DNA of 39,401 nucleotides from positions 1-39,401 of the IMG/VR virus record IMGVR_UViG_3300017763_000052. The stretch is one strand, 5' to 3'. Shown one piece after another: positions 5,573-32,037 of the stretch (the first letter of the stretch is position 1; every line of letters begins with the position of its first letter). The notes beneath the pieces were generated by a model that was not told the DNA's origin, made no database searches, and saw only the letters and a list, made by a program, of their open reading frames with translations. The stretch is from a virus. Position numbers and translations under genes: made by a program.

Positions 5573-5578
5573 TTGTTC

Positions 5579-6817
5579 ATGACTTTTAAAATACCCAAGG
5601 AAATGCCTTGCAATTTTTGTATTGCACCGTTTATATCCACAAGGCCGGACGTAAGACATCAGAACAGTCCTTGTGCCTATGGTGCTTTAGATATTAAACA
5701 ACCACAACTAAATGCCAAAAAGAAATGGCATAGTGAAGAACTAAACAATCTCAGACAACAATTTATAAACAACGAACAGCCAGATGCCTGCAACAGGTGT
5801 TGGTTTGAAGAAGAGGCTGGCAAAAGCAGTTTAAGACAACGTTTATTACAGTATCAACCTAATGCATATCAAGATTTAATTATCACTGGTAGGTGGTACG
5901 ATGGTCCTTTATCTATTACATTCAAGTCCAGTAATGTTTGTAACCTAGCATGTAGAAGTTGCGGTGCTCATGACAGTAATCAGTTTGATAAAGAAGGTGC
6001 TACATATCTAAAAGAATACAACAATAGAGGACAATACATAGCAAATCACAAACCAGAGCATGTCAATATGATAGACTATATAACTATTTGCGACAATTTA
6101 CGACATTTAGAATTCTTTGGTGGTGAACCTTTATTAAACATTACACAATTTGAACTACTAGAACATTTAGTTGAATCAGGCAGAAGTAAAGATATAACAT
6201 TGTATTACAACACCAACGCAACTAACACACCCACAGAACGTTTACAACGAGCATGGAAAGAATTTAAAAGTATAGAAATAAGTTGTAGCATTGATGGTAT
6301 CAAAGATAAATTTGAATATTTAAGATATCCAGGTAAGTGGAGTACACTAGAATCAACTTTAGATAATTTACAAAATATGAACTTAGGTATTCCTACAAGG
6401 ATAGTAGGCAACATGACTACAAGTATTACTAATGTATGCGACACAACAGAAATTTATGAATGGCAAAAAGAAAGGTTTGGTGAGTATCCGTACAACTCCA
6501 TGGTTGACATGCCATCTTATATGAGCATAAAGAATATACCAGATGAATACAAAAATCAAATCAGTTCACATCTAAGTATGTCTGAGGTCAGAGATTACTT
6601 GAATATAGATATACAATATCCAAATGCATTCAGAGAATGGATTAAATGGATGAAAAGAATGGACAAGTATAGGGAACAAAACTTTATAACCACATTCCCT
6701 AAACTATATAATATAATCAAAAAAGATTGGGATTCAGTTATTGACTTAGCAGATCCTAGACCAGACTTTGATATATTTGGTGCCATGTCTGCCGTTAAAG
6801 ACAACCTCCCACAATAA
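5579..6817 (+). CDS. Radical SAM protein with auxiliary Cys cluster (twitch/SPASM-like)
   Basis: A 412-aa radical SAM enzyme. CNLACRSC at residues 121-128 gives the CxxxCxxC that binds the catalytic 4Fe-4S cluster, and FFGGEPLLN is the SAM-contacting GGE motif. Further cysteines lie at C11/C14 (CNFC), C32 and C71/C74 (CNRC), suggesting a second iron-sulfur cluster as in twitch/SPASM peptide-modifying enzymes; the substrate is unknown. I chose the ATG at 5579; a TTG six bases earlier overlaps the promoter spacing. The protein ends MSAVKDNLPQ, exactly like the upstream gene, because of the direct repeat. It looks like an inserted cargo gene with its own late promoter. Confidence 0.85.
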   Translation: MTFKIPKEMPCNFCIAPFISTRPDVRHQNSPCAYGALDIKQPQLNAKKKWHSEELNNLRQQFINNEQPDACNRCWFEEEAGKSSLRQRLLQYQPNAYQDLIITGRWYDGPLSITFKSSNVCNLACRSCGAHDSNQFDKEGATYLKEYNNRGQYIANHKPEHVNMIDYITICDNLRHLEFFGGEPLLNITQFELLEHLVESGRSKDITLYYNTNATNTPTERLQRAWKEFKSIEISCSIDGIKDKFEYLRYPGKWSTLESTLDNLQNMNLGIPTRIVGNMTTSITNVCDTTEIYEWQKERFGEYPYNSMVDMPSYMSIKNIPDEYKNQISSHLSMSEVRDYLNIDIQYPNAFREWIKWMKRMDKYREQNFITTFPKLYNIIKKDWDSVIDLADPRPDFDIFGAMSAVKDNLPQ

Positions 6818-7976: not shown

Positions 7977-8651
7977 ATGTTAGTAGAAAAGTTTGAATAC
8001 CCAACACTAAAAAGGGTTACAGCCAAAAATGGTCAAAGACAATATACTGGTGATGATGATCAACCAGTGCCAAGTGTAACCACTGTATTAGGTGATACCG
8101 GTGATAAAACAGCACTAATGAATTGGCGTAAACGTGTAGGCGATGCTGAAGCAAACCGTATAAGCAGAGAAGCCGCAGGCCTAGGTACTAAAGTACACAA
8201 TGCATTAGAAAAATATGTGCTACAAGAAGAGTATGAAATTTCAGGTAGTAACCATATCAGTATAATGGCTAAATCAATGTTAGAAGAAATGATAGCAAAA
8301 GGTTTAAGCCAAGTAGATGAAGTATGGGGTGTTGAAGTAGCCTTAATTGCAAAAGGCTTATACGCAGGTACAAGCGATGCAGTGGGTATGTTTAACGGTG
8401 TTGAAAGTATTATTGACTTCAAGACTGCTAAAAAGATCAAGAAGCGTGAGTGGATTGAAGATTACTTTATGCAAGGTTGTGCATACGCATTAGCACACAA
8501 TGAAATGTTTGGCACAAAAATTAAACAAGTTGCTATCTTAATGGTAGACAGAGAAGGCAAGTATGCAGACTTTGTTATCGAAGGTGACGAGTTTGAAGAA
8601 TATTGTGGGAAATGGGCAGACCGTCTAGCTCAGTACTACAATAAGATATGA
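7977..8651 (+). CDS. PD-(D/E)XK exonuclease (Cas4/RecB-like nuclease)
   Basis: A 224-aa protein with the core of the PD-(D/E)XK nucleases. H74 lies in a GTKVHNALEKY helix, D134 in YAGTSDAVG, and the D147-x-K149 pair in SIIDFKTAKK; a following helix contains the conserved Gln-Tyr type motif (YFMQGCAYALAH). This arrangement matches RecB/Cas4-like exonucleases annotated in many T4-like marine phages. The likely role is host DNA degradation or phage DNA recombination in the cytoplasm. It has a perfect host-type promoter and good ribosome site, unlike its late neighbours, so it is probably expressed early. The next gene overlaps by ATGA. Confidence 0.85.
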   Translation: MLVEKFEYPTLKRVTAKNGQRQYTGDDDQPVPSVTTVLGDTGDKTALMNWRKRVGDAEANRISREAAGLGTKVHNALEKYVLQEEYEISGSNHISIMAKSMLEEMIAKGLSQVDEVWGVEVALIAKGLYAGTSDAVGMFNGVESIIDFKTAKKIKKREWIEDYFMQGCAYALAHNEMFGTKIKQVAILMVDREGKYADFVIEGDEFEEYCGKWADRLAQYYNKI

Positions 8652-9664
8652 TTTCAAAAGAAATACATTTAAAATATAAACTATCTCAACATGTATCGGA
8701 ATACGATTTTAACATTGTTGATGTAGAATTGCCTGAAATAGAATTAGGTGAATTTTTAGTTAAAAATTTATATTGTAGCACTGATCCTTTTATGCGATCA
8801 AATATGTCGTTTGAAGGTGGGTTCTTTAGAATGGAGCCTAATGCTCCTCTGTATGGAGAGTCTATTGGCATAGTTGAAGAAAGTAAATGCAGTGATTATC
8901 CAGTAGGAACTTATGTATGGCATAATAAAGGCTGGAGAGAATATGGTATATGTAAAGATACTACAGCAATACTTAAAGTTCAACCAGACTTAGATAGTTT
9001 AGATGAATCACTTATACGTTTTGCAACAGCATTTAGTCTAGTTGGTAGGACATCATACTACAGTATGACTAATGTATGTAATATTCAACAAGGAGATGTG
9101 TTAGGAATAGATGGAGCAACTGGAGGTGTAGGACATCTAGCAGTACAGATAGCAATATCTAAAGGTGCAAAAGTTTATGGTATTACTAGTACTGATGAAA
9201 AAGTATCAAAAATAAACGAACTTGGTGGTATTGGTATTAAAGTTTTACCTAATTGGCCACTGCAAAAAAAATTAAAAGCATACAATGATATAGGTGAAAA
9301 ATTTGATTATTACCATGCTAATGTTGGTAATGATTATACATTAGCAGGATTACAAAATCTAGCATACGGCGGAACTCTTGTATTATGTGGAGCAATGAAA
9401 CATTACAATGATGCTACTCATGGTCCTGGTCCAAATCTAGGTGCGGTGATCTACAATGATGCAACAATACGTGGTTGTAATTTTTCAGCAAAAAACACTA
9501 CCTTTGGTAATGAATGGAATCAAGAACTACAAAGTTTCTTTAATAAAACCAAAATTAAATGTTTAAGTACACTAACACATGGTTTAGAAAGTATGCCGGC
9601 ACAATTTGTAGGCCATTTTAACGGATTTAAAGACAGTATTGGCAAAAGGCTATGTAAGATATAA
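8648..9664 (+). CDS. Zinc-free MDR-family NAD(P)H reductase
   Basis: A 338-aa medium-chain dehydrogenase/reductase. The N-terminal GroES-like part has YCSTDPFMRSNM, typical of the leukotriene B4/prostaglandin reductase and CurA subgroup. The Rossmann part has GDVLGIDGATGGVGHLAVQIA at about 150-170, the cofactor-binding glycine motif. The cysteine and histidine zinc ligands of alcohol dehydrogenases are absent, so it should reduce activated double bonds (enones) with NADPH. The start overlaps the nuclease stop (ATGA), so it may share the early promoter at 7929. Its substrate is unknown, perhaps a lipid or quinone-type enone. It is an unusual gene for a phage. Confidence 0.85.
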   Translation: MISKEIHLKYKLSQHVSEYDFNIVDVELPEIELGEFLVKNLYCSTDPFMRSNMSFEGGFFRMEPNAPLYGESIGIVEESKCSDYPVGTYVWHNKGWREYGICKDTTAILKVQPDLDSLDESLIRFATAFSLVGRTSYYSMTNVCNIQQGDVLGIDGATGGVGHLAVQIAISKGAKVYGITSTDEKVSKINELGGIGIKVLPNWPLQKKLKAYNDIGEKFDYYHANVGNDYTLAGLQNLAYGGTLVLCGAMKHYNDATHGPGPNLGAVIYNDATIRGCNFSAKNTTFGNEWNQELQSFFNKTKIKCLSTLTHGLESMPAQFVGHFNGFKDSIGKRLCKI

Positions 9665-15134: not shown

Positions 15135-16231
15135 TGACAGTTTTTAACCCTAACAGAAAAACAAAACACACAGAATCTAAAATGTTTTTAGATAAAAGTG
15201 GTTCAGTGGATATTCAAAGATTTGATACACTTAAATATAAACAGTTTGATAAACTAACTGATAAGCAGTTAGGATTCTTTTGGAGACCAGAAGAAGTAGA
15301 TATTTTACGTGATGCAACTGACTTTAAAAATCTTTCCGATCATGAACAGCATATCTTTACAAGCAATTTAAAAAGACAAATATTACTAGATAGTGTACAA
15401 GGACGTTCACCTAATCTTGCTTTCTTGCCTATAGTAACTCTACCTGAGTTAGAAACTTGGATTGAAACTTGGGCATTCAGTGAAACAATTCACAGCAGAA
15501 GTTATACACATATTATCAGAAACGTATATGCAGATCCTAGTAAAATATTTGATGAAATGCTTGACGTTAAAGAGATTGTAGATTGTGCTGATAGTATTAC
15601 TGCTAATTACGATAAACTCATCGAATACAACCTGTTAAGACAACAAGCAAGTAAAAAGTACGATGAATACGAACACAAAAAGGCTTTATGGTTAGCACTA
15701 ATGAGTGTAAACATCTTAGAAGGTGTACGTTTTTATGTATCCTTTGCATGTAGTTGGGCATTTGCAGAACTTAAAAAGATGGAAGGTAATGCTAAAATTA
15801 TCAAACTTATTGCTAGAGATGAAAACGTTCACTTAGCAAGTACACAACAAATGCTAAAGATTTTACCACAAGACGATAAGGACTTTGCAAAAATAGAAAA
15901 AGAAACATACGAGCAATGTACACAAATGTTTGTTGATGCTGTAGAGCAAGAAAAACAATGGGCAGACTATTTGTTCAAAGACGGAAGTATTATTGGACTC
16001 AACGCAGAACTACTAAAGCAGTATGTAGAGTTTATTGCTGGTAAAAGAATGCATGCCGTTAGACAAGAAAAGATTTATAATACTGGTACCAACCCTTTAC
16101 CATGGACACAATCATGGATAGCAGGTGGTAGTGTACAAGTAGCACCACAAGAAACTGAAATCAGCAGTTATGTAATTGGTGGTACTAAACAAGATGTAGA
16201 ACAAGATACATTTAAAGGATTTAGTTTATAA
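15134..16231 (+). CDS. nrdB: Class Ia ribonucleotide reductase, beta subunit
   Basis: A 365-aa protein, the diiron-tyrosyl radical partner of NrdA. The block WAFSETIHSRSYTHIIRN carries iron ligands E117 and H120 and the radical tyrosine Y124. D86 lies in LLDSVQGRSPN, and the second ligand set is in NILEGVRFY and ARDENVHLAS. It is therefore a Tyr-radical class Ia enzyme and not a Phe/Leu variant. It overlaps nrdA by one base and the PAAR gene by one base, so three genes form a coupled unit from the promoter at 12785. Confidence 0.97.
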   Translation: MTVFNPNRKTKHTESKMFLDKSGSVDIQRFDTLKYKQFDKLTDKQLGFFWRPEEVDILRDATDFKNLSDHEQHIFTSNLKRQILLDSVQGRSPNLAFLPIVTLPELETWIETWAFSETIHSRSYTHIIRNVYADPSKIFDEMLDVKEIVDCADSITANYDKLIEYNLLRQQASKKYDEYEHKKALWLALMSVNILEGVRFYVSFACSWAFAELKKMEGNAKIIKLIARDENVHLASTQQMLKILPQDDKDFAKIEKETYEQCTQMFVDAVEQEKQWADYLFKDGSIIGLNAELLKQYVEFIAGKRMHAVRQEKIYNTGTNPLPWTQSWIAGGSVQVAPQETEISSYVIGGTKQDVEQDTFKGFSL

Positions 16232-16494
16232 TGCCAGGTGTAACAAAAGTATCAGCCAATCAAGCCAAGGGTGCTATATTAGGACCTGGTGCTTCTACAG
16301 TTTTTACTGAAGGACAACGCACTACTTTACTTGGTGATAGAGTTGCTCCTCATGGCAAGCCACCACATACATCACCAACAATGGTAGAATCTAGCAAAAC
16401 AGTATTTGCTCAAGGTAAACCAGTTGTAAGATCAGGTGATTCCGCAACTTGTGGACATGCCGCTAACGGTTCTAGTACCGTATTTGCTGGCTAA
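16231..16494 (+). CDS. PAAR-motif spike-tip protein
   Basis: An 87-aa Gly/Ser/Thr/His-rich protein. PAAR proteins cap the membrane-piercing spike of contractile tails (T4 gp5.4). Histidines in VAPHGKPPHTSP plus the Cys-Gly-His in SATCGHAANG fit the zinc-binding tip, with repeated turns of the form 'STVF', 'KTVF', 'PVVRSGD'. Length is typical for a stand-alone PAAR. It starts inside the nrdB stop (TAATG), an odd partner for a virion gene. An internal late promoter is not obvious, so it may rely on read-through. Confidence 0.85.
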   Translation: MPGVTKVSANQAKGAILGPGASTVFTEGQRTTLLGDRVAPHGKPPHTSPTMVESSKTVFAQGKPVVRSGDSATCGHAANGSSTVFAG

Positions 16495-16509: not shown

Positions 16510-16517
16510 AATAAATA
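16510..16517 (+). promoter_or_regulatory. T4-type late promoter of the lipid operon, leaderless
   Basis: AATAAATA, 6 nt before the ATG at 16524. It heads a run of seven overlapping genes ending at 22479. Confidence 0.75.
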
Positions 16518-16523
16518 TTCTAC

Positions 16524-17666
16524 ATGCTTATTATACAATTTGTTGATCCTATAAACATATCTACGTTTCCTGTCGATATAATACAATCTTTTAAACATGA
16601 CACATATCTAATAGATTGCCAAATCAACGAATATGAGACTATAAATTACATTACAGCAAACTACCCTGTTTTAAACATGCAAAACAACGAAGATGTTGCT
16701 TATTTCGGTGGTTTAAACGCACATACACCGTCTTACACGCATGTTTTATTAGAAGATACACTTGCGCCACTCATTGAAAAATTAGACCTGTTAGAGACGC
16801 AAATACCACAAATATTGTGTTTTGACTGGCAAATAGACCGTAATTATATACTAGATTATCGTATAAAACAACTGATTAAAGCAGGTAATATAGTAGTTTG
16901 TTCCGGTGGAAACGAGGATTTGCCACTACTAGATCTTAGTCCTGTAGCAGTTGATGGAGTATTTAGAGTAGGTGGAGATTTGCATAATGGACACTATGCT
17001 AATTGGATTGATGTTTATGATTTTATTGTACCTGATGTACCAAACAGCAATGAAGCAGTACACATTGTTTGTGAAAAATTAGTTACTAAAGAATTACAAT
17101 TAGAATATGATTTAGATTTTTATAGTGAGAGCAATGTAAAAAGTGCTCCATGGCCAAGACGTTTAGTAAAGACTCCAGAAAAATTAAACAAAGTTTATGA
17201 ATTTTTGCCAGTATCAAATTTGAGATATTTTGCTGGTGAACATTTATTGCCAGTTAGGCCAGGTGACACAGTAGAAGTTAAATATGGTTCTTGTGAATTG
17301 GAAGATTTTGTAAATGCAGAAAGCATTACAGTAGATAAAGACCTACCACGTGGTATTACCTTTAACACTGATAGTGGTTGGATGTATGGCACATTTAAAT
17401 TTAAGAAAGATTTGTTTCACAGATTTGTAGTTAGATTTAATGATCAAAAATTTGAATACCATATTATAAGTTGCGATGCAGATAACAAACTAACATACGA
17501 AGATGTAAAACAAAAGTATTACAATCAACCATACGATGCACCACCATTTACAATTAGAGAATATTGGGTACCAATGGCAAGACCTGTAAAACTTTTAGAA
17601 CCAGGTGATCCGTTTATTAGAACTTATAATTTAAATGACTATCATTTGTACAGAGGTGTAAAATGA
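16524..17666 (+). CDS. Subtilase-like (probably inactive) and Ig-like domain protein
   Basis: A 380-aa protein. The segment IKQLIKAGNIVVCSGGNEDLPLLD, then VDGVFRVGG and YANWIDVYDFIVP, mimics the oxyanion-hole region of subtilases (GI.VV.AAGN, then VI.VGA, then the FSN.G block). I see no Asp, His or GTS serine motif, so this is likely a dead S8-like fold. After residue about 230, VRPGDTVEVKYGS and DLPRGITFNTDSGWMYGTF resemble a putative-Ig (He_PIG) domain. A virion or adhesion role is plausible. First gene of the late operon; the stop overlaps the next start (ATGA). Both domain calls are from pattern only. Confidence 0.5.
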   Translation: MLIIQFVDPINISTFPVDIIQSFKHDTYLIDCQINEYETINYITANYPVLNMQNNEDVAYFGGLNAHTPSYTHVLLEDTLAPLIEKLDLLETQIPQILCFDWQIDRNYILDYRIKQLIKAGNIVVCSGGNEDLPLLDLSPVAVDGVFRVGGDLHNGHYANWIDVYDFIVPDVPNSNEAVHIVCEKLVTKELQLEYDLDFYSESNVKSAPWPRRLVKTPEKLNKVYEFLPVSNLRYFAGEHLLPVRPGDTVEVKYGSCELEDFVNAESITVDKDLPRGITFNTDSGWMYGTFKFKKDLFHRFVVRFNDQKFEYHIISCDADNKLTYEDVKQKYYNQPYDAPPFTIREYWVPMARPVKLLEPGDPFIRTYNLNDYHLYRGVK

Positions 17667-18619
17667 GAGGAGTAACGTTTAGCGAATTTGGAGGAGGCAA
17701 GCCAGTTGATATGTTTGTACACGCACCAAAAACTATTCCTGGTACTCCTATGCAAGAAGCAATAAGAACTGCAAAATCAATTAGAGAAAAGTACACTAAA
17801 GATTTATATGTATGGTGTGATTATAGTGTGCAACACATGTATTCTCAAATAGCCATGCAGGCATTTAAAATGGCAGGCATAGAATTTAAAGCGGCTATAC
17901 CTTTACTTAGTAATGATTTAAGTAAAAGAGAAAACGATTGTACTATTGCATATTGTGAGAAACATAATATAACATATGAATTATTTTATATAGATGTGCC
18001 TGAATTATTTAATGGACCAGACCTTGAATACTATGGTGAAAAGTTTCCTACAACACAACCACAAATGACTATTGCTGGTAAGTTTTTTGATATGTTACCA
18101 GATTGCTGTATTGTGTATCCTGGTTTTATGATGCACGTGAGTACAAGTGATTGGACTAGAAGTAAAAATAATGGCTTTATGCCTTTTGTACCTCATGAAA
18201 CACAAGAACATGCCGCAACAGTATTTGGTAAAGAGTATACTAATTTCCAAGAACATTACGTAGATATGTACAGCAGTTGGATGTTTACACAAAGTTATGG
18301 AGAAGTATTAAAATCAGCAACGCAAGAATTTGTAGATAATGCCCCACATAGATATTATCAATATGAAATGCGTACTATAAAACAAGCAGGGTTTGATATA
18401 AAACCCACAACACAAAAACTAATTGGCATTGAAATGCTCAAAAGTTTTTTCGGTCATGATAAATACGATATAGCATTCAGACAAAGATTAGCACCATTTT
18501 CTCCTTTGACTCTGAAGTATGCGAGTCTACAGTACACAGTTAAAGTAGACACTAAACTTAAAGAGATGTTAGAACATTATCATGAAGAGACTTTTGAATT
18601 CATTGACAAACTTTTTTAA
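17663..18619 (+). CDS. PP-loop/adenine nucleotide alpha-hydrolase-like protein, degenerate
   Basis: A 318-aa protein. Residues about 45-115 follow the layout of N-type ATP pyrophosphatases seen in phages: a strand (DLYVWCDYSVQHMYSQIAMQAFKMAGIEFKA, quoted here by position 46-76 with key residues W51, C52, D53), then AIPLLSNDLSKRENDCTIAYCE and NITYELFYIDVPELF. In active relatives the first strand carries SGGxDS; here it is CDYSVQ, so ATP hydrolysis is doubtful. The C-terminal part is unrecognised. Upstream it couples through ATGA, and the desaturase starts 38 bases before its stop. A ribosome site (AGAGGTG) precedes it. Confidence 0.45.
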   Translation: MRGVTFSEFGGGKPVDMFVHAPKTIPGTPMQEAIRTAKSIREKYTKDLYVWCDYSVQHMYSQIAMQAFKMAGIEFKAAIPLLSNDLSKRENDCTIAYCEKHNITYELFYIDVPELFNGPDLEYYGEKFPTTQPQMTIAGKFFDMLPDCCIVYPGFMMHVSTSDWTRSKNNGFMPFVPHETQEHAATVFGKEYTNFQEHYVDMYSSWMFTQSYGEVLKSATQEFVDNAPHRYYQYEMRTIKQAGFDIKPTTQKLIGIEMLKSFFGHDKYDIAFRQRLAPFSPLTLKYASLQYTVKVDTKLKEMLEHYHEETFEFIDKLF

Positions 18620-19409
18620 AAACAAAGCAAAAGCCAATTTCTGGCTATACACATTACCAGTACATTTCTTAGGCCTAGTAGGATTAGGTGCCATGGCTTA
18701 TTTTGGAGACTGGAATTATCTACTACATACGTTCGTCTTTTATTTCCTTTTTGGCTGTATTGGAATGGCTGTTGGCTTACATAGATACTGGGGTCATGCC
18801 GCATTTGAAATGCCTAAATGGAAAGAACGTTTTGTAACACTTATGGGTGTATTCAATGGCTATGGAAGTATTTTTCCATGGGTTATGGTACACGAAAAAG
18901 GACATCATGTCCACAGCGATACTGAGGAAGATCCACATACACCAAACAAAGGAATGTGGTATGCTTTTTTAACATGGCACAAAGAACAAAAATATTTTGA
19001 TCAACACGTTAGTAGAAGAGTGTTAGTAAACTATGTGAGAAGAGGTTTTGTAAACGATAAGTTTTATCAAATACTAAACGATTATCATATGGCAATAAAC
19101 TATGGTACACTTATACTGATAGCACTACTGTTCGGTTGGAAAGTAGCACTATACGGTTTTTGGATGGGCATATGGTTTACACTTTTAAATACTAGTACTG
19201 TAACAGCATTCAGTCACAAGAAATGGTTTGGTTACAGAAATTTTGAAACAAAAGACAATAGTGTAAACAATAGAGTTGGAGCAATACTAACTTTTGGTGA
19301 AATGTTACATAACAATCATCATAGGTATTGGAAAGCAACAAACAATAGTCAACACTGGAGTGAAATAGATATAAGTGGTTTAGTAATTGAACGACTGAGA
19401 AAAAGATGA
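18582..19409 (+). CDS. Acyl-lipid/acyl-CoA delta-9-type fatty acid desaturase (first of two)
   Basis: A 275-aa integral membrane diiron desaturase. The three histidine boxes are complete: HRYWGH at 67-72, HEKGHHVH at 104-111 and HNNHH near 248. Hydrophobic segments flank them (about 20-60 and 165-205), as in stearoyl-CoA/DesC desaturases. It inserts a double bond into fatty acyl chains in the inner membrane using oxygen and an electron donor. Its length is near the bacterial minimum. The start lies within the end of the previous gene, and its stop overlaps the next start (ATGA). Late expression suggests that the host membrane is remodelled before lysis or for virion contact. Confidence 0.92.
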   Translation: MKRLLNSLTNFFKNKAKANFWLYTLPVHFLGLVGLGAMAYFGDWNYLLHTFVFYFLFGCIGMAVGLHRYWGHAAFEMPKWKERFVTLMGVFNGYGSIFPWVMVHEKGHHVHSDTEEDPHTPNKGMWYAFLTWHKEQKYFDQHVSRRVLVNYVRRGFVNDKFYQILNDYHMAINYGTLILIALLFGWKVALYGFWMGIWFTLLNTSTVTAFSHKKWFGYRNFETKDNSVNNRVGAILTFGEMLHNNHHRYWKATNNSQHWSEIDISGLVIERLRKR

Positions 19410-20173
19410 TATTTTACTTACTGTTTATACCCATTACAATACTAAGTTTTATCTGGAGCCTTATCTATGGCTCTACAGAACTTTGGTTAGCAACATTATT
19501 CTTTACAACATTATATAGTGGGTATGGAATTGTAGTTGGATACCATAGATTACATAGTCATAAAAGTTTTAAAACTTGGGAACCTATGAGAAAGTTTTTA
19601 TTATATTTAGGTTGTCAAGGAGCACAAGGCTCGCCAGTAACATGGAGCCTAATACACAACAGAAGTCATCACGCACATACAGATACAGATAAAGATGTGC
19701 ATACTCCTACAAAAGGATTATGGTATGCATTTGCAGGATGGATTTTTCATAAAGAAAATCATAGATTTGCACAACAAGAAATTTTTAAAGTAAAAAAGAT
19801 TTTAGATCCTTATTCAATTTGGTGTCATAGAAATTATTACTTTTTAGTAATTTTAAATTTAGTAATTATAGGTTTAATAACTATATGGTGGCATGACGGA
19901 AGATATTTACTTGCAAGTTTAAATGCAAGTTATTTAAGTTTAGTTATTAGTGGAATAGTAAACGTATTTGGACATACACCTATTAAAGGTTTGACGTATG
20001 CAACTACTCCAATGAAAAATAACAGTACAAACAATCCTTGGTTAGCATTATTTACATGGGGTGAAAGTTTACATAACAATCATCATGCTAAACCTAGAAG
20101 ACTAAACTTTAATACTAAATGGTACGAATTGGATGTAGGAAGATGGTTGATCTCAACAGTAAAAAAATCTTAA
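19406..20173 (+). CDS. Fatty acid desaturase (second of two)
   Basis: A 255-aa membrane desaturase, paralogous to the preceding gene but clearly diverged. Its histidine boxes are HRLHSH at 47-52, HNRSHHAH at 84-91 and HNNHH near 229. Hydrophobic spans occur at about 2-20, 27-45, 130-150 and 155-170. The two desaturases probably act on different acyl positions or carriers, although the sequence cannot show which. Both have all metal ligands and no frameshift, so both appear functional. It is coupled to the first by ATGA. Confidence 0.92.
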   Translation: MIFYLLFIPITILSFIWSLIYGSTELWLATLFFTTLYSGYGIVVGYHRLHSHKSFKTWEPMRKFLLYLGCQGAQGSPVTWSLIHNRSHHAHTDTDKDVHTPTKGLWYAFAGWIFHKENHRFAQQEIFKVKKILDPYSIWCHRNYYFLVILNLVIIGLITIWWHDGRYLLASLNASYLSLVISGIVNVFGHTPIKGLTYATTPMKNNSTNNPWLALFTWGESLHNNHHAKPRRLNFNTKWYELDVGRWLISTVKKS

Positions 20174-20748
20174 GAACATTTTTTGATGGTAAAATAGGTT
20201 GTATAAAATACGACAATGACTGGTTGCCTCAATTAGAAGAATTTTGTAGTGTTGCAAAAGATTTAGGATATGTCAACAACGCATCTCCAGAAGCAATGAA
20301 AGTCGATGAAATACAATATCATTGTATGATACATATTCCAACTAAAAAAATATATGCAGTTGCCGGTGTACAGTATATGCCTGAGTACAAAGAAGGTTAC
20401 TATAGAATTTGGACTAGACTTAGTAGAATACCAAATCCTGATATACCAATGACAACAACAAGAAGATATGGTAGAGGTGAAATGCCAGAGTTTGATGGCT
20501 TACTATATTTTAATTGTGAGTGGGCAACACAACAGCCTAACTTTAAAGCAACCTTTGGAACAACATTAGCCAATAAAGCATACGCAGATAATTATGTTAA
20601 AACAGCAAATACTATTACAGATTATGTTGCAAAAAATTGGTGGAAACGTAAAGGTATAGCAGAACCAGAAGGCATTACAGAATTTTATGCAGTACCACAA
20701 GTAGTGTGGCGTATGCACTTTGACAAATTTAAGGACTTAGCAAAATGA
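20143..20748 (+). CDS. Unknown protein in the lipid operon
   Basis: A 201-aa protein without a recognised family. I prefer the ATG at 20143 (MVDLNSKKILRTFF), with GGA upstream; an in-frame ATG at 20119 would add eight residues but has no ribosome site. The centre (MIHIPTKKIYAVAGVQYMPEYKEGYYRIWTRLS, key positions around 70-100) has strand-strand-helix features weakly like a GNAT-type acyltransferase. That would suit neighbouring lipid enzymes, but it is only a suspicion. It overlaps the desaturase by 31 bases and the next gene by ATGA. Confidence 0.55.
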   Translation: MVDLNSKKILRTFFDGKIGCIKYDNDWLPQLEEFCSVAKDLGYVNNASPEAMKVDEIQYHCMIHIPTKKIYAVAGVQYMPEYKEGYYRIWTRLSRIPNPDIPMTTTRRYGRGEMPEFDGLLYFNCEWATQQPNFKATFGTTLANKAYADNYVKTANTITDYVAKNWWKRKGIAEPEGITEFYAVPQVVWRMHFDKFKDLAK

Positions 20749-21608
20749 AAAATATGAAACGAGTACTATTCTCTGTAGAGAGTACTAGAAATATTTATTG
20801 GGACAATACTCCAATAACAGTAGGATGCCAATTGGTAATACCTAATAAATTTGAGGGCGATCAACCTTTGTGTATTGTAAGTCATGGTTCAGGTGGATTA
20901 GGTAGCGATACAGATTTATTTGTAAATAGTTTAGCGGCACAAGGTATAGCAACATTATGTGTTGATAGTTTTACTGGTAGAAGTATGGAAGCCATTGGCT
21001 GGAATGACTTTAGTGGATATGTAAGTCCTAGAATGAGAGCATTAGAAACAGTCCAAGCATACAAATATTTAAAAGATAATCAAGAACTAATGTTTGCTGG
21101 TTTAGATCTAGACAGAGTAGCATGTGTTGGTTTTAGTTGGGGAGCAGATTCAATGGCAAATGTTTTTGCACATCACAAAGATGATATTCCAAAAGAAACA
21201 TTCTTTGCATTATGTTATGGTAATTTGTGGCCTTTCGAGGAAGAATTTTATAACGCAAAAGATTTTGATGTAACTGTATATCACGGCACAGAAGATAATT
21301 GGACTAGTCCGGAAAGAGGCAAACAATTTTGTGATGAGACAAACAGTAAATTTGTAGAATTCTTTGATGTTGTACACGGATTTTGTAAACCAGGATACGA
21401 CAAACAAGAAGTTGCAAATGATGTAATAGTAAATTATCACGCAGAATTTCCAGTACCAACTAGATTAAGAGATGTGTTTGGTTGGATTCAAAAAGGTAAA
21501 GTTTGGAAAGATACTGATTGGCTCCGGGTAGATGCAAAATTGGCTTACGACCAAATGGCAACAGAACGTGTGCTAGATGATATCATAGGAAAATTAAAAA
21601 ATGCATAG
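20745..21608 (+). CDS. Dienelactone-hydrolase-like alpha/beta hydrolase
   Basis: A 287-aa alpha/beta hydrolase. SHGSGGLG (about 46-53) is the oxyanion strand, GFSWG at 129-133 the nucleophile elbow with S131, D184 in HGTEDNWTS and H211 in VVHGFCKPG complete the triad. Layout and the VHGF motif fit the dienelactone hydrolase family, which cleaves esters or lactones. No signal peptide, so cytoplasmic. It may start at ATG 20745 or at the in-frame ATG 20754. It shares an operon with two desaturases and an SGNH esterase, suggesting lipid or ester turnover. Confidence 0.85.
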   Translation: MKNMKRVLFSVESTRNIYWDNTPITVGCQLVIPNKFEGDQPLCIVSHGSGGLGSDTDLFVNSLAAQGIATLCVDSFTGRSMEAIGWNDFSGYVSPRMRALETVQAYKYLKDNQELMFAGLDLDRVACVGFSWGADSMANVFAHHKDDIPKETFFALCYGNLWPFEEEFYNAKDFDVTVYHGTEDNWTSPERGKQFCDETNSKFVEFFDVVHGFCKPGYDKQEVANDVIVNYHAEFPVPTRLRDVFGWIQKGKVWKDTDWLRVDAKLAYDQMATERVLDDIIGKLKNA

Positions 21609-22479
21609 AATGGTATTTGCAGGTTGTAGTTTTACCCACAGTGGAGATAGTTGGGCATATCAACCACAACCAAAAAATAAACCACATGTTGAAGAGATTG
21701 ATCATCCTAGTGAACCTTGGGGAGATTATTTATTAAGAGAGCAAAGTAAATTGGTAGAAAAAATATATGGTATTAAAAATGCTTTTGATCCAGAAACGTT
21801 TTGGGCAAACTCTCATAGACTTCCAGAAGAGCAGTATGAAATAAATATATTCGGAAGAGGCTCTAACAGCAATACTGACACAGCAAGATGTATTATGCAC
21901 TTTATAGAAAACTATGAACATGATATAGACACAGTTGTAATGCAAATTAGTGGTTTTGCTAGAAGAGAATTATATACTGCTAGTGCAGACGCAATTGAAC
22001 ATGCTAATACTTTTTCTGGTTATATTTTTAATACTACAAATTATGATGATGCAACCTTTATAAAACACCATGGGTGCATAGATCTTAATGAAATTAAAAA
22101 TGAAGAAACTAAAGATGCTCTTAGAACGGCATCAGCAAGATTTTATGCAGTTGCTGAGCAAGAAGAATACCACATAAGAGCAATAGAACAATTACAAAGT
22201 TTAACTAATTTTTGTAAAGTACATAATATTAAATTAGCATACTTTCATGGTTGGGATAATATACCCGAAAACACAACTCAATATTTTAATAAAAAATACT
22301 ACAAGTATGTACAACCGTACTTGTTATCACAAGATAGCATAATAAGTTATGCACAAAAACATTTAGAAGAAAAATTTGTGTATGACATTATGACTCATAA
22401 TGATGAACATGGTGGACATCCATGTCCATTAGCACATCAATTATTTTGGAACAATATTGTTTATCCTTTTGTAAAATAG
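21601..22479 (+). CDS. SGNH hydrolase-like protein
   Basis: A 292-aa protein, last gene of the late operon. GCSFTHSGDSW at 8-18 is a block I variant (S10), GRGSNSNTD supplies block II, QISGFARREL block III and HGGHPCPLAHQLFWNN the C-terminal histidine block. This pattern is that of phage and bacterial SGNH-like esterases often annotated as hypothetical. It overlaps the preceding gene by 8 bases. It differs from the SGNH gene at 6837 by lacking a long N-terminal region, so they are separate lineages. Ester hydrolysis is likely; the substrate is unknown. Confidence 0.7.
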   Translation: MHRMVFAGCSFTHSGDSWAYQPQPKNKPHVEEIDHPSEPWGDYLLREQSKLVEKIYGIKNAFDPETFWANSHRLPEEQYEINIFGRGSNSNTDTARCIMHFIENYEHDIDTVVMQISGFARRELYTASADAIEHANTFSGYIFNTTNYDDATFIKHHGCIDLNEIKNEETKDALRTASARFYAVAEQEEYHIRAIEQLQSLTNFCKVHNIKLAYFHGWDNIPENTTQYFNKKYYKYVQPYLLSQDSIISYAQKHLEEKFVYDIMTHNDEHGGHPCPLAHQLFWNNIVYPFVK

Positions 22480-22487
22480 AATAAATA
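22480..22487 (+). promoter_or_regulatory. T4-type late promoter, leaderless
   Basis: AATAAATA immediately after the SGNH stop, 6 nt before the ATG at 22494. Confidence 0.75.
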
Positions 22488-22493
22488 TACTGT

Positions 22494-23516
22494 ATGAGCA
22501 GACTCATTTCAGTAAAAGGTCCACATACAACAGACCCAGATAGAGCAGTACACATACAATGGAGCATGGGTAATACATGTAACTATGAATGTGAATACTG
22601 TCCTACAACTCTACATAATGGTTCTAAGCCTTGGTTATCTACGGAATTGTATTTAGAAACTATACATAAAATATGTAAATATTATCGAGACAAAGGTAGA
22701 CATTTACATTTTGAACTTATAGGTGGAGAGGTAACAACAATACCAGGGTTTGAGATTATACTTAAAACTATTGCGGAATACGGTGCTAGTGCTGTAGTTT
22801 ACACTAATGGTAGTAGAACTGTACGTTGGTGGGAAGAGGCAAGAGAATACCTACAAGGTGTAGTGATAACATATCATCCACTTACAATGGACGAAGAGCA
22901 TTTATTTGAAGTTGTTAAAACATTAAAAGGCTATTGTACTATAGATTTAAACATTGCAGGTATAGGTGGTCAAGTTATAGAACTAGGTGAAGTAGTAGAT
23001 AGATTAAGAGAATTATTCAAAGACAATGCACAACAAAGTATATATGATGTAAACATTACAGTTAAAACAATGTATCAAAAGTACTTAGGTAACAACAACG
23101 AACAACAAGCACCATATTATTCTTACACTGATGAAGAATTAGAAATATTACAACGTCCAGGCGTAATACCCAGACCTCCGGAGCCACAACCGGAACAATC
23201 AAATGAACCAGATGAGACTGGGCATGAACGTTTTTGGGCAACAGAATTTTTATATGAAGATGGTAGTGTAAAGTATGTACAAAGTCATCAAATTATAAAC
23301 GAAGGATTGAACTCTTTTAAAGGTATGAAATGCGAATTAGGTTATGATGGAATCAATATTGATATGAATGGAGAAATAATTAGTAGTTGGTGTGGTGCAA
23401 AAAGTTTTGGAAATATCACACAATTAGATTCTTGGCAGTTGCCAGACACTGAAACTGTTTGTCCTCATGAGTTTTGTAATAACCTAAATGACATCAGTAT
23501 AACCAAAACATTGTAA
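22494..23516 (+). CDS. Radical SAM protein with C-terminal Cys motifs
   Basis: A 340-aa radical SAM enzyme. CNYECEYC at 29-36 is the CxxxCxxC cluster motif and LIGGEVTT is a GGE-type motif. Near the C-terminus MKCELG, SSWCGAKSFGN and CPHEFCNN give four to five cysteines arranged like a SPASM/twitch auxiliary cluster, which suggests modification of a peptide or protein. It has a hydrophilic Pro/Glu-rich insert around 220-240. It is not closely similar to the radical SAM gene at 5579. It is alone behind its own leaderless late promoter. Confidence 0.85.
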   Translation: MSRLISVKGPHTTDPDRAVHIQWSMGNTCNYECEYCPTTLHNGSKPWLSTELYLETIHKICKYYRDKGRHLHFELIGGEVTTIPGFEIILKTIAEYGASAVVYTNGSRTVRWWEEAREYLQGVVITYHPLTMDEEHLFEVVKTLKGYCTIDLNIAGIGGQVIELGEVVDRLRELFKDNAQQSIYDVNITVKTMYQKYLGNNNEQQAPYYSYTDEELEILQRPGVIPRPPEPQPEQSNEPDETGHERFWATEFLYEDGSVKYVQSHQIINEGLNSFKGMKCELGYDGINIDMNGEIISSWCGAKSFGNITQLDSWQLPDTETVCPHEFCNNLNDISITKTL

Positions 23517-24539: not shown

Positions 24540-25265
24540 ATGAGCTTACCATACTATTTTGAAGTACCAGAACTTAAATTACCTTTTGACGTTTTACAGT
24601 ATGTAGACGATGAAAAAGTAATGAAAGCAGACGACAGAGTAGACGATGGTAATCACAGTTATGTTGATAAATTAAAACGTCAAGAAGCAACCTCAATGGA
24701 TGCTGGTTGGTATATGAGAGCATTTGGTAATACTGGAGGCACAGGACAAGGTGGCTACGGTGAAACACTTAGTGACGCAACTGGTATGTCAGAAGAACAA
24801 CATCCAGATATGAGTAAGATTGTCAGAGAATGGGCAAATGACTTACTTAATATCAGAATGACAAGTTGTATGTTATTAAGAACATTACCAGGCAAAGACG
24901 GTTATTGGCATTGTGAAGGCCCACAGTTACGCAGTAGAAGATGTGCATTAAACTTTTTAGTTGAAGGCAATATAGGAAAAACTTCTGCACAATGGGGATA
25001 TAATAAGAGTTGGGGTAACCTTCCGCCCGAACAAGTAGAACTTCAAGGATATGTAAAAAAAGAAGATGCAGATAATATAGAAGTACTCGACGAGTACGAA
25101 TCACCTGAATTAAACACAGGATTTTTTTATAACACAATGTACTTACACAGAGGTACTAACTCAAATTCAGATGTACGAAGAAGTATATTAAGTATTTCAG
25201 TTGCGGAAAGTGTTGATATACAAGGAGTTTATAAACTATACCAAGCAGGAAAATTATTTAAATGA
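24540..25265 (+). CDS. Beta-helix dioxygenase-like protein (first of a tandem pair)
   Basis: A 241-aa protein. YWHCEGPQLRSRRCALNF and MYLHRGTNSNSDVRRSILSISV match the order H-x-D/E ... R ... LNF ... H ... R-x-x-LS found in Fe(II)/2-oxoglutarate and aspartyl-hydroxylase-like double-stranded beta-helix enzymes. Candidate metal ligands are H124, E126 and the distal His near 210. It begins MSLPYYFEVPELKLPFDV, an opening shared with the next gene. Likely a paralogous pair. Whether it is a true oxygenase is unproven, since HxE is less common than HxD. It overlaps the next gene by ATGA. Confidence 0.6.
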   Translation: MSLPYYFEVPELKLPFDVLQYVDDEKVMKADDRVDDGNHSYVDKLKRQEATSMDAGWYMRAFGNTGGTGQGGYGETLSDATGMSEEQHPDMSKIVREWANDLLNIRMTSCMLLRTLPGKDGYWHCEGPQLRSRRCALNFLVEGNIGKTSAQWGYNKSWGNLPPEQVELQGYVKKEDADNIEVLDEYESPELNTGFFYNTMYLHRGTNSNSDVRRSILSISVAESVDIQGVYKLYQAGKLFK

Positions 25266-25975
25266 GTCCAAGAGATTTTTTACCCTACTATTTTGAAGTG
25301 CCAGAGATGCCACTCATACCTTTTGATGTAACAAAATACTTTACTACAGAATTGCAACGTGAAATAGCAATGCAAGATAACAAAAATCCAGAAGATTTAA
25401 TGGATGGTGAATCAAGAAGCCAGAGTGCTAATTGGTATCAAAGTTATATTAAGGTAGAAGAAAATAGTCCTATGAACAAGAGGGACTTTAAAGAAGTCAA
25501 TTTGTTCGAAGATGTAAATTTTGAATTATCAAAACTAATGAAAGAATGGTTACATGATACATTAAATTTAAAATTTACAAGTATACTTATGTTACGAACA
25601 CCTGCAAATTGTAATAGCAGATGGCATTGTGAAGGCCCAGTATTTCATACCAGGCAATGTGCATTAAATTTTCCAGTATACGGTGATGCATCAGTTATGG
25701 AAGGTCAATGGGCAACGTTCCCAAGGTTTAAAGATGTAGATCCACGTGACAATGAAAAGCACGGATTTGTTACTAAAGATGATATGAAAGAAACAAACAT
25801 ACTTTGTCGTTGGGATAAACCAACAGTTCCTGCATTTTATAACACTATGATTTTCCACAGAGGTTATAACGAGTTAAGCAATAGGGATAGAGTTGTTTTG
25901 TCCTGTGCTGTGGAAGATTACTCCGATATAAATGTTTGTCACCGTAAATACAATAAAGGCAAATTATTCAAATAA
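25262..25975 (+). CDS. Beta-helix dioxygenase-like protein (second of a tandem pair)
   Basis: A 237-aa paralogue of the upstream gene. Shared blocks: LPYYFEVPEMPL at the start, WHCEGPVFHTRQCALNFPV (H122, E124), FYNTMIFHRGYNEL with the distal His, a similar last strand and a final KGKLFK matching AGKLFK. Sequence between the blocks has diverged, so the duplication is old or the two act on different substrates. Substrate unknown. Confidence 0.6.
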   Translation: MSPRDFLPYYFEVPEMPLIPFDVTKYFTTELQREIAMQDNKNPEDLMDGESRSQSANWYQSYIKVEENSPMNKRDFKEVNLFEDVNFELSKLMKEWLHDTLNLKFTSILMLRTPANCNSRWHCEGPVFHTRQCALNFPVYGDASVMEGQWATFPRFKDVDPRDNEKHGFVTKDDMKETNILCRWDKPTVPAFYNTMIFHRGYNELSNRDRVVLSCAVEDYSDINVCHRKYNKGKLFK

Positions 25976-31185: not shown

Positions 31186-32037
31186 ATGTTGGACTATCCT
31201 TTTTGGGTCAATGACTTTGATAGAGTAAAAGACCACAAACAGAAATATCCATTATCAAGTAAAATTTTTGAACATCCAGTTTCGTTCTGGTACGGTGAAC
31301 GTAACGGAAAAGAAGTAAATGATCTAGATTACAGCATAGAAAGATTACTTAAACGCACACATCCAAATTTACCAATCTTAGTTTTGTATAACATGCCTAA
31401 CAGAGATATAGGGCAGTATAGCAAAGGCGGAGCAAAGACTAGAGATAGTTACTTGCACTTTATAAAAAGTTTTGCTGATGGTATAGGTAATAAATCACCT
31501 ATAGTTATATACGAACCGGATAGTCTCCCTCATACTACAATGATGCAAGAAGCAGATGCACTTTGGCGCATGGACCTTATGAAAGAAGGCTTAGAACTGC
31601 TTACACGCAGTTGTAGAGCCCATGTTTATGTTGATATAGGACATAGCAATTGGTTAAGTCCTAAAGATGCCGCTAAATTGTTAAATAGTGTATGTAACGA
31701 AAAAGTTAGAGGCTTTGCAGTAAACGTTAGTAATTATCGTAGTACAAAAGAAAGTGTAAATTGGGGTCTTAAAGTATGCGAATACAGACCACAAGATCAT
31801 TTTGTAATAGATACTAGTCGTAATGGTAACGGACCACACGGCAATGAATGGTGTAATCCTCCTGGCAGATCATTAGGTATACCACCAACATGTGATACAG
31901 GTGAGGAACAATGTGATGCATTTCTTTGGATTAAGATACCAGGCGAAAGTGATGGTAAGGCCAACAAAGGACCTAAAGCAGGTAAATTTTGGGGAGAGAT
32001 GGCAGAGCAATTAGTGAGAAACAATGAAGATTCATGA
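31186..32037 (+). CDS. Glycoside hydrolase family 6 (cellulase-type) catalytic domain
   Basis: A 283-aa GH6 domain. The known catalytic acidic residues are all present: D74 in NMPNRDIGQYS, D112 in YEPDSLPH (proton donor) and D256 in IPGESDG (base region). VYVDIGHSNWLSP, GFAVNVSNYRST, IDTSRNGNG and WCNPPGRSLGIPPT are further hallmark strands of GH6 endo/exo-beta-1,4-glucanases. There is no signal peptide or carbohydrate-binding module, so it must act inside the cell, leave at lysis or ride on the virion. It sits between deformylase and three oxygenases in a late operon. A ribosome site AAGG precedes it. Confidence 0.9.
   Translation: MLDYPFWVNDFDRVKDHKQKYPLSSKIFEHPVSFWYGERNGKEVNDLDYSIERLLKRTHPNLPILVLYNMPNRDIGQYSKGGAKTRDSYLHFIKSFADGIGNKSPIVIYEPDSLPHTTMMQEADALWRMDLMKEGLELLTRSCRAHVYVDIGHSNWLSPKDAAKLLNSVCNEKVRGFAVNVSNYRSTKESVNWGLKVCEYRPQDHFVIDTSRNGNGPHGNEWCNPPGRSLGIPPTCDTGEEQCDAFLWIKIPGESDGKANKGPKAGKFWGEMAEQLVRNNEDS

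Follow-up and report, generated by a model that had tools for sequence, protein, structure and literature searches.

The 39.4 kb virus record IMGVR_UViG_3300017763_000052 (analysed over its whole length of 39,401 nucleotides and hereafter called the window) carries seven open reading frames (ORFs) on its + strand between positions 16524 and 22479. They lie head to tail with overlapping ends (Table 1). ATGA junctions are present at 17663, 19406 and 20745, in agreement with a first-pass annotation of this DNA, and further overlaps are located at 18582-18619 (38 bp), 20143-20173 and 21601-21608 (8 bp). At the centre of this block are two predicted membrane fatty acid desaturases, Des1 and Des2, encoded by genes 3 and 4. 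There is about an even chance that the block is a late module for acyl-chain desaturation and remodelling in a lineage of jumbo marine phages, whose enzymes would have the activities predicted for them.

Des1 and Des2 match PF00487 above the cut-off and have three His boxes (HRxxxH, HxxxHH and HNNHH) and several hydrophobic stretches. Both also match solved acyl-CoA desaturases, among them chains of stearoyl-CoA desaturase 1 (SCD1; 4ymk_A is acyl-CoA desaturase 1). These features characterize genes 3 and 4 as complete membrane desaturases with the stearoyl-CoA desaturase fold and a predicted activity, and bear out the earlier proposal of two complete but diverged enzymes. The two proteins are about 31% identical. 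In a tree with bacterial relatives, the Des1 sequences form one clade and the Des2 sequences another, and the two do not group together; long branches make their deeper placement uncertain. Since each protein forms its own clade and these clades are not sisters, a recent tandem duplication is rejected. Des1 was seen in no contig without the block. A bacterial source of des2 was sought in 84,980 genomes with phage-specific des2 patterns, which matched nothing. A broader bacterial query returned just desaturases of 26-35% identity, and their flanks contain no tandem pair.

Genes 1 to 6 keep one order in 11 viral contigs (nine distinct phages plus the window; three have an identical sequence here), as far as the length of each contig allows. 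Among these contigs, block proteins are 45-98% identical. Pairwise ratios of nonsynonymous to synonymous substitutions (dN/dS) against the window are 0.07-0.22 for the block genes where they can be estimated, with synonymous sites near saturation. By this measure, all block genes are under purifying selection. Because the block is kept in all these contigs at such protein identities and with low dN/dS, its conservation is not due to chance. The first-pass annotation had named a failure of the genes to co-occur in relatives as a result that would speak against it, and on this count its claim survived. The flanks, which in many phage contigs consist of PAAR, nrdA/B and radical SAM genes, together with the dN/dS values identify the block as auxiliary metabolic genes. 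Since contigs with the block reach 339,794 bases, the lineage is one of jumbo marine phages, and its exonuclease, ribonucleotide reductase, PAAR and late-promoter features mark it as T4-like. In annotated phages, the block has no match at the DNA level and genes 1, 2, 5, 6 and 7 have no homologues. The sole annotated phage match is a desaturase of the jumbo Acinetobacter phage MD-2021a (~254 kb) with just 26% identity.

Table 1. Features of the block, its flanks and the associated genes of larger relatives. Positions refer to the window unless a locus is named.
Feature	Position	Strand	Evidence and remarks
PAAR-motif protein	16231..16494	+	PF05488 E=4e-16; directly upstream of the block; conserved anchor common to sister phages (synteny)
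Late-promoter-like site AATAAATA	16510..16517	+	14 nt 5' of gene 1 start codon; ATAAATA core begins 13 nt 5' of start
Gene 1, subtilase-fold-like protein	16524..17666	+	hhalign to sister-phage subtilases E=5.7e-5; C-terminal part resembles a putative Ig-like domain (by eye)
Gene 2, PP-loop-fold protein without SGGxDS	17663..18619	+	hhalign against sister-phage PP-loop proteins with SGGxDS, E=4.5e-5
Gene 3 (des1), membrane fatty acid desaturase (predicted)	18582..19409	+	PF00487 E=1.4e-14; 4ymk_A E=1.1e-9; HRYWGH, HEKGHH, HNNHH
Gene 4 (des2), membrane fatty acid desaturase (predicted)	19406..20173	+	PF00487 E=8.7e-18; 4ymk_A E=2e-13; HRLHSH, HNRSHH, NVFGH, HNNHH
Gene 5, 201-aa protein, possibly GNAT-like	20143..20748	+	Weak fold match; start moved from 20119
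Gene 6, alpha/beta hydrolase	20745..21608	+	Ser131 (GFSWG), Asp184, His211; EST1E (PDB esterase) E=0.0036
Gene 7, SGNH-like hydrolase by motif	21601..22479	+	GCSFTHSGDSWA ... HPCPLAH in alignment (block I GxSx, block V His)
Next late-promoter-like site, before radical SAM gene	22480..22487	+	ATAAATA core at 22481, 13 nt 5' of start; kept in relatives
Radical SAM protein	22494..23516	+	PF04055 E=2.1e-9; directly downstream of the block; anchor common to sister phages without lipid genes
Phage acyl carrier protein	L083:6452-6688; L084:7551-7781		Between spanin-like lipoprotein gene and DnaJ/ClpA genes
FabF-like ketoacyl synthase	L119:6470-7687; L120:6752-7966		Intact triad; overlapping dCMP deaminase gene

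A motif of the form ATAA[AG]TA is located about 12-13 nt 5' of the gene 1 start in 11 of 11 homologous sequences (ten relatives and the window). Within the window, it occurs 11-15 nt upstream of 5 of the 39 listed gene starts versus 0.3% of random positions. A sixth motif-bearing gene is listed with a TTG start at 5573; an ATG in frame at 5579 lies 13 nt from the motif. The late promoter of the first-pass annotation is upheld as a conserved site at fixed spacing. An exact TATAAATA was rejected as the promoter: It is not enriched in the window, whereas the degenerate motif at fixed spacing is, and the site actually reads AATAAATA. The motif suggests late expression of the block. Because a second promoter-like site precedes the radical SAM gene, the transcription unit most likely comprises genes 1 to 7 and ends at this site. 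ATAAATA itself is found at 1687, 5566, 6825, 16511, 22481 and 24528 of the window, 12-13 nt 5' of six gene starts that are mostly the first genes of runs. A T4-type spacing would place the transcript starts at or next to the start codon and yield nearly leaderless late mRNAs.

Gene 6 had been regarded as a dienelactone-hydrolase-like enzyme with an intact Ser-Asp-His triad. The triad stands: Ser131, Asp184 and His211 are invariant in the alignment of relatives, and the nucleophile lies in a GxSxG motif of the serine type. The family assignment is not supported. A true dienelactone hydrolase has a Cys-Asp-His triad, the gene 6 nucleophile is the Ser of GFSWG, and no dienelactone hydrolase profile matches. 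Matches to generic alpha/beta-hydrolase profiles are weak and all below the cut-off. For gene 7, the motifs of the proposed SGNH esterase are present, and no Pfam, PHROG or NCBIfam profile matches it. Since four relatives (L002, L004, L008 and L010) lack gene 7, it is an accessory gene that is dispensable within the lineage. Gene 5, an unknown possible acyltransferase in the first-pass annotation, starts at 20143 and not at 20119, because relatives share the ATG at 20143 and the frame is closed at the upstream start in L004. Its structural model is of low confidence (pLDDT 55.5, pTM 0.54) with elements in a GNAT-like order. The best PDB matches are GNATs, none of them significant (E≥0.05). Sequence and profile searches gave no match, and profile comparison revealed no link to the GNAT of sister phages. 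At best, gene 5 is weakly GNAT-like. An overlapping ORF behind des2 in L009 was considered as a gene 5 homologue, and profile comparison gave no support for it.

Genes 1 and 2, for which the first-pass annotation offered no explanation, point to an older history of the locus. The likeness of gene 1 to subtilases centres on the SGGN...SPVAVDGVFRVGG region. Gene 1 has neither an HGT nor a GTS motif, no S8 catalytic motifs and no Pfam S8 match. The AlphaFold model of gene 2 has a mean pLDDT of 49, and its N-terminal part matches LarE/TtuA/NadE (Foldseek probability up to 1.0, E ~0.01). An invariant DYSVQH is found in place of the SGGxDS ATP-binding motif. Despite the missing ATP motif, no other protein of the block is as strongly conserved (dN/dS 0.07-0.11), so gene 2 has some role. 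On the grounds of the likeness to subtilases and PP-loop proteins (hhalign, Foldseek), genes 1 and 2 were rejected as lipid enzymes, and a function outside lipid chemistry is considered probable for both. A search with the radical SAM protein yielded 17 sister loci (L054-L069 and L074) with the order nrdA-nrdB-PAAR-...-radical SAM-glycosyltransferase as in the window; their radical SAM homologues are 41-50% identical. In these loci, the stretch between PAAR and radical SAM encodes no desaturases. It holds genes for a PP-loop protein bearing SGG[IV]DS, for a subtilase whose DSG/HGHGT/GTS motifs are intact and for a canonical GNAT. Since sister phages have these genes at the same site without desaturases, the lipid genes look as if they were added to an older locus. 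In the simplest history, the lineage of the window would have kept degenerate yet strongly conserved older genes and gained desaturases and hydrolases. Alternatively, the lipid genes may have been lost in the sister phages. In two sister loci (L074:6433-11008 and L054:6312-11014), PAAR, SGGxDS PP-loop protein, an active-looking subtilase, GNAT and radical SAM lie in a row and possibly represent a phage protein-modification locus.

Larger relatives have a wider lipid toolkit. All three relatives above 100 kb (G001, G002 and G003) encode an acyl carrier protein (ACP) that matches PF00550 above the cut-off. The serine motifs are LELDSL and LNFDSL, and PRK00982 is matched with E=6e-20 in L084. In G001 and G003, the ACP gene is located between a spanin-like lipoprotein gene and DnaJ/ClpA. 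The same three relatives encode a FabF-like ketoacyl synthase (KS). Its match to the profile TIGR03150 (fabF) has E=4e-72, yet lies below the equivalog cut-off. The triad Cys163/His298/His332 is conserved between G001 and G003, and in both the KS gene adjoins a dCMP deaminase gene. This lineage-specific KS (~75% identity or more) is present in about 11 viral contigs. In G001, the relative of 340 kb, a third desaturase gene lies in the middle of a series of radical SAM-like genes (L082:4503-14249). The fatty-acid reading is strengthened because the three largest relatives encode both KS and ACP.

Taken as an acyl-chain module, the block could operate as follows. Des1 and Des2, two distinct membrane diiron desaturases, would act together or in succession on acyl-ACP, acyl-CoA or membrane lipid and would raise unsaturation at a late stage of infection, as the membrane comes under stress from virion assembly and lysis. 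Electrons would be delivered by host donors. KS and ACP of the large relatives would supply or elongate chains. The gene 6 hydrolase, joined by the gene 7 protein where present, would most likely release or edit acyl esters, and gene 5 possibly edits or transfers acyl groups. Genes 1 and 2 would stem from the older PAAR / PP-loop / subtilase / GNAT / radical-SAM locus, probably without a part in lipid chemistry. Phages of this lineage probably reshape the fatty acids of infected cells. The single lipid pathway envisaged in the first-pass annotation is retained with respect to the late operon, the desaturases, the hydrolase triad and the co-occurrence of the genes. It is too strong with regard to all seven genes as lipid enzymes, as genes 1 and 2 are subtilase- and PP-loop-like, gene 7 is dispensable and the possible acyltransferase, gene 5, has a weak GNAT-like fold.

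Several observations weigh against such a module. Because KS and ACP genes of the relatives lie tens of kb from the block and outside the window, genome content alone ties them to it. Probe genes from the KS and ACP neighbourhoods had no match in the sister contigs, which do not cover those regions. An electron donor elsewhere in the genome, which had been proposed as a check, was searched for in the relatives, the 340 kb one included: No Fer2 ferredoxin, flavodoxin or cytochrome b5 was found, so electrons would have to come from the host. A PlsC-type acyltransferase was not found in the relatives either. The Asn of the NxxxH position is present in Des2, in the third desaturase of G001 and in almost every bacterial homologue examined. 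In all Des1 sequences examined, Thr takes its place, and the metal site of Des1 may therefore be altered. Furthermore, a Des2 relative (68-71% identity) occurs singly in two T4-like contigs that have different ribonucleotide reductase genes of their own. Since Des2 is also found by itself in another type of T4-like phage, it can do without the whole module. The solitary Des2 would also fit a late transcription unit of unrelated auxiliary genes, in which the desaturases alter membrane lipids and genes 1, 2, 5, 6 and 7 act elsewhere, for instance on virion proteins or glycans. The variable presence of gene 7 is in line with this, as are the sister phages that carry subtilase, PP-loop protein and GNAT at the site without lipid genes, and the glycosyltransferases, methyltransferase and glycosyl hydrolase family 6 (GH6) protein encoded downstream of the block. 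However, genes 2 to 6 are linked with overlaps in each long-enough relative that has des1, and random collections normally reshuffle at such divergence. A mere assembly of unrelated genes is thus possible but somewhat doubtful.

The Thr of Des1 raises another option, namely that Des1 is a partner of Des2 or a relative with altered chemistry (a hydroxylase or a regulatory subunit) and not a standard desaturase. It would also account for the finding that des1 never occurs without des2, whereas des2 is found without des1. Yet Des1 keeps all His boxes and is strongly conserved, and the Thr may be neutral because one bacterial homologue also lacks the Asn. This option is considered unlikely. A dedicated acylation system has been weighed as well: Gene 5 would transfer ACP-bound desaturated chains onto a protein of the phage or a small molecule, as ACP-dependent protein acyltransferases do, and genes 1, 2 and the radical SAM gene would belong to the same protein-modification locus. 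The ancestral locus does resemble one (PP-loop ATPase, protease, GNAT and radical SAM beside PAAR), gene 5 occupies the GNAT position and has GNATs as best PDB matches, and the lineage owns an ACP. For Erwinia jumbo phages, an ACP is reported from mass spectrometry of virions (PMC7760394). Against this, the fold of gene 5 is predicted with low confidence and without profile homology to the sister GNATs, no substrate peptide was identified, and catalytic motifs are missing in genes 1 and 2. Such an acylation system is improbable, the least probable of the alternatives. The four readings, i.e. the acyl-chain module and these three, are not mutually exclusive. The acyl-chain module also has a bolder form: A near self-contained acyl pathway (KS, ACP, two to three desaturases, an acyltransferase-like protein and hydrolases) might make a specific unsaturated product late, possibly attached to the virion, and would have been grafted onto an older protein-modification locus beside the tail-spike PAAR gene. 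This form is regarded as distinctly unlikely.

Other genes of the window deserve mention. The GH6 (cellulase) match at 31186-32037 has E=4.9e-53 and is unexpected for a phage. In a single ORF at 148-1686, the N-terminal part matches a phage family of superoxide dismutases and the adjoining part ParB-like nucleases. At 8648-9664, a medium-chain reductase related to leukotriene B4 dehydrogenase and 2-alkenal reductases is encoded, and a similar-looking gene is located upstream in L021 (853-1905). Enzymes of this kind act on lipid-derived enals. The adjacent genes at 24540-25265 and 25262-25975 are paralogues with ~34% identity, of which relatives have two or three copies.

Individual components of the system have been encountered in other phages. 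Lipid desaturases encoded by cyanophages have reportedly been described by Roitman et al. in 2018 (ISME J), and that work is not known to include an operon in which a hydrolase and gene 5 accompany a second, non-sister desaturase. By their description, the cyanophage enzymes are, like those of the block, membrane fatty acid desaturases of marine T4-like phages. The freshwater pelagimyophages include a group, PMP-D, that to our knowledge does not consist of jumbo phages. This T4-like group combines fabF with a stearoyl-CoA desaturase; unlike the lineage of the window, it has no radical SAM genes, and the available part of the report describes neither a desaturase pair nor such an operon (PMC7029224). 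Desaturases of phages from cryopeg brine and sea ice have three His motifs, the SCD1 fold and signs of purifying selection, and some of their clades lack microbial members (PMC7300359). Two of these viruses carry five desaturase copies each, and an action of phage desaturases on membranes was put forward there as a hypothesis (PMC7300359). In contrast to the block, the accessible text describes no late operon in which desaturases are consistently paired with genes for a hydrolase and for PP-loop-like and GNAT-like proteins (PMC7300359). Jumbo phages of the Eneladusvirus type, among them Erwinia phages with enterobacterial hosts, resemble the large relatives in that their ACP gene neighbours a spanin-like gene for lysis, and differ from them in that the part of the report at hand mentions no desaturase or KS (PMC7760394). 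In the searched literature, which covered few subscription papers and no preprints, no late operon was found that combines a conserved non-sister desaturase pair with this gene set. Phage desaturases, fabF with a desaturase and phage ACPs have already been described singly, and what appears new is the locked non-sister desaturase pair with the hydrolase and with KS and ACP.

Most reports on phage desaturases so far concern single auxiliary genes or loose copies. In the block, a non-sister pair is locked together with a hydrolase in a conserved operon that is predicted to be late. If functional, this operon would mean that some phages rebuild acyl chains with an enzyme set of their own and not by boosting a single host step. 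Des1 and Des2 together with host electron donors would constitute a compact and directly testable system.

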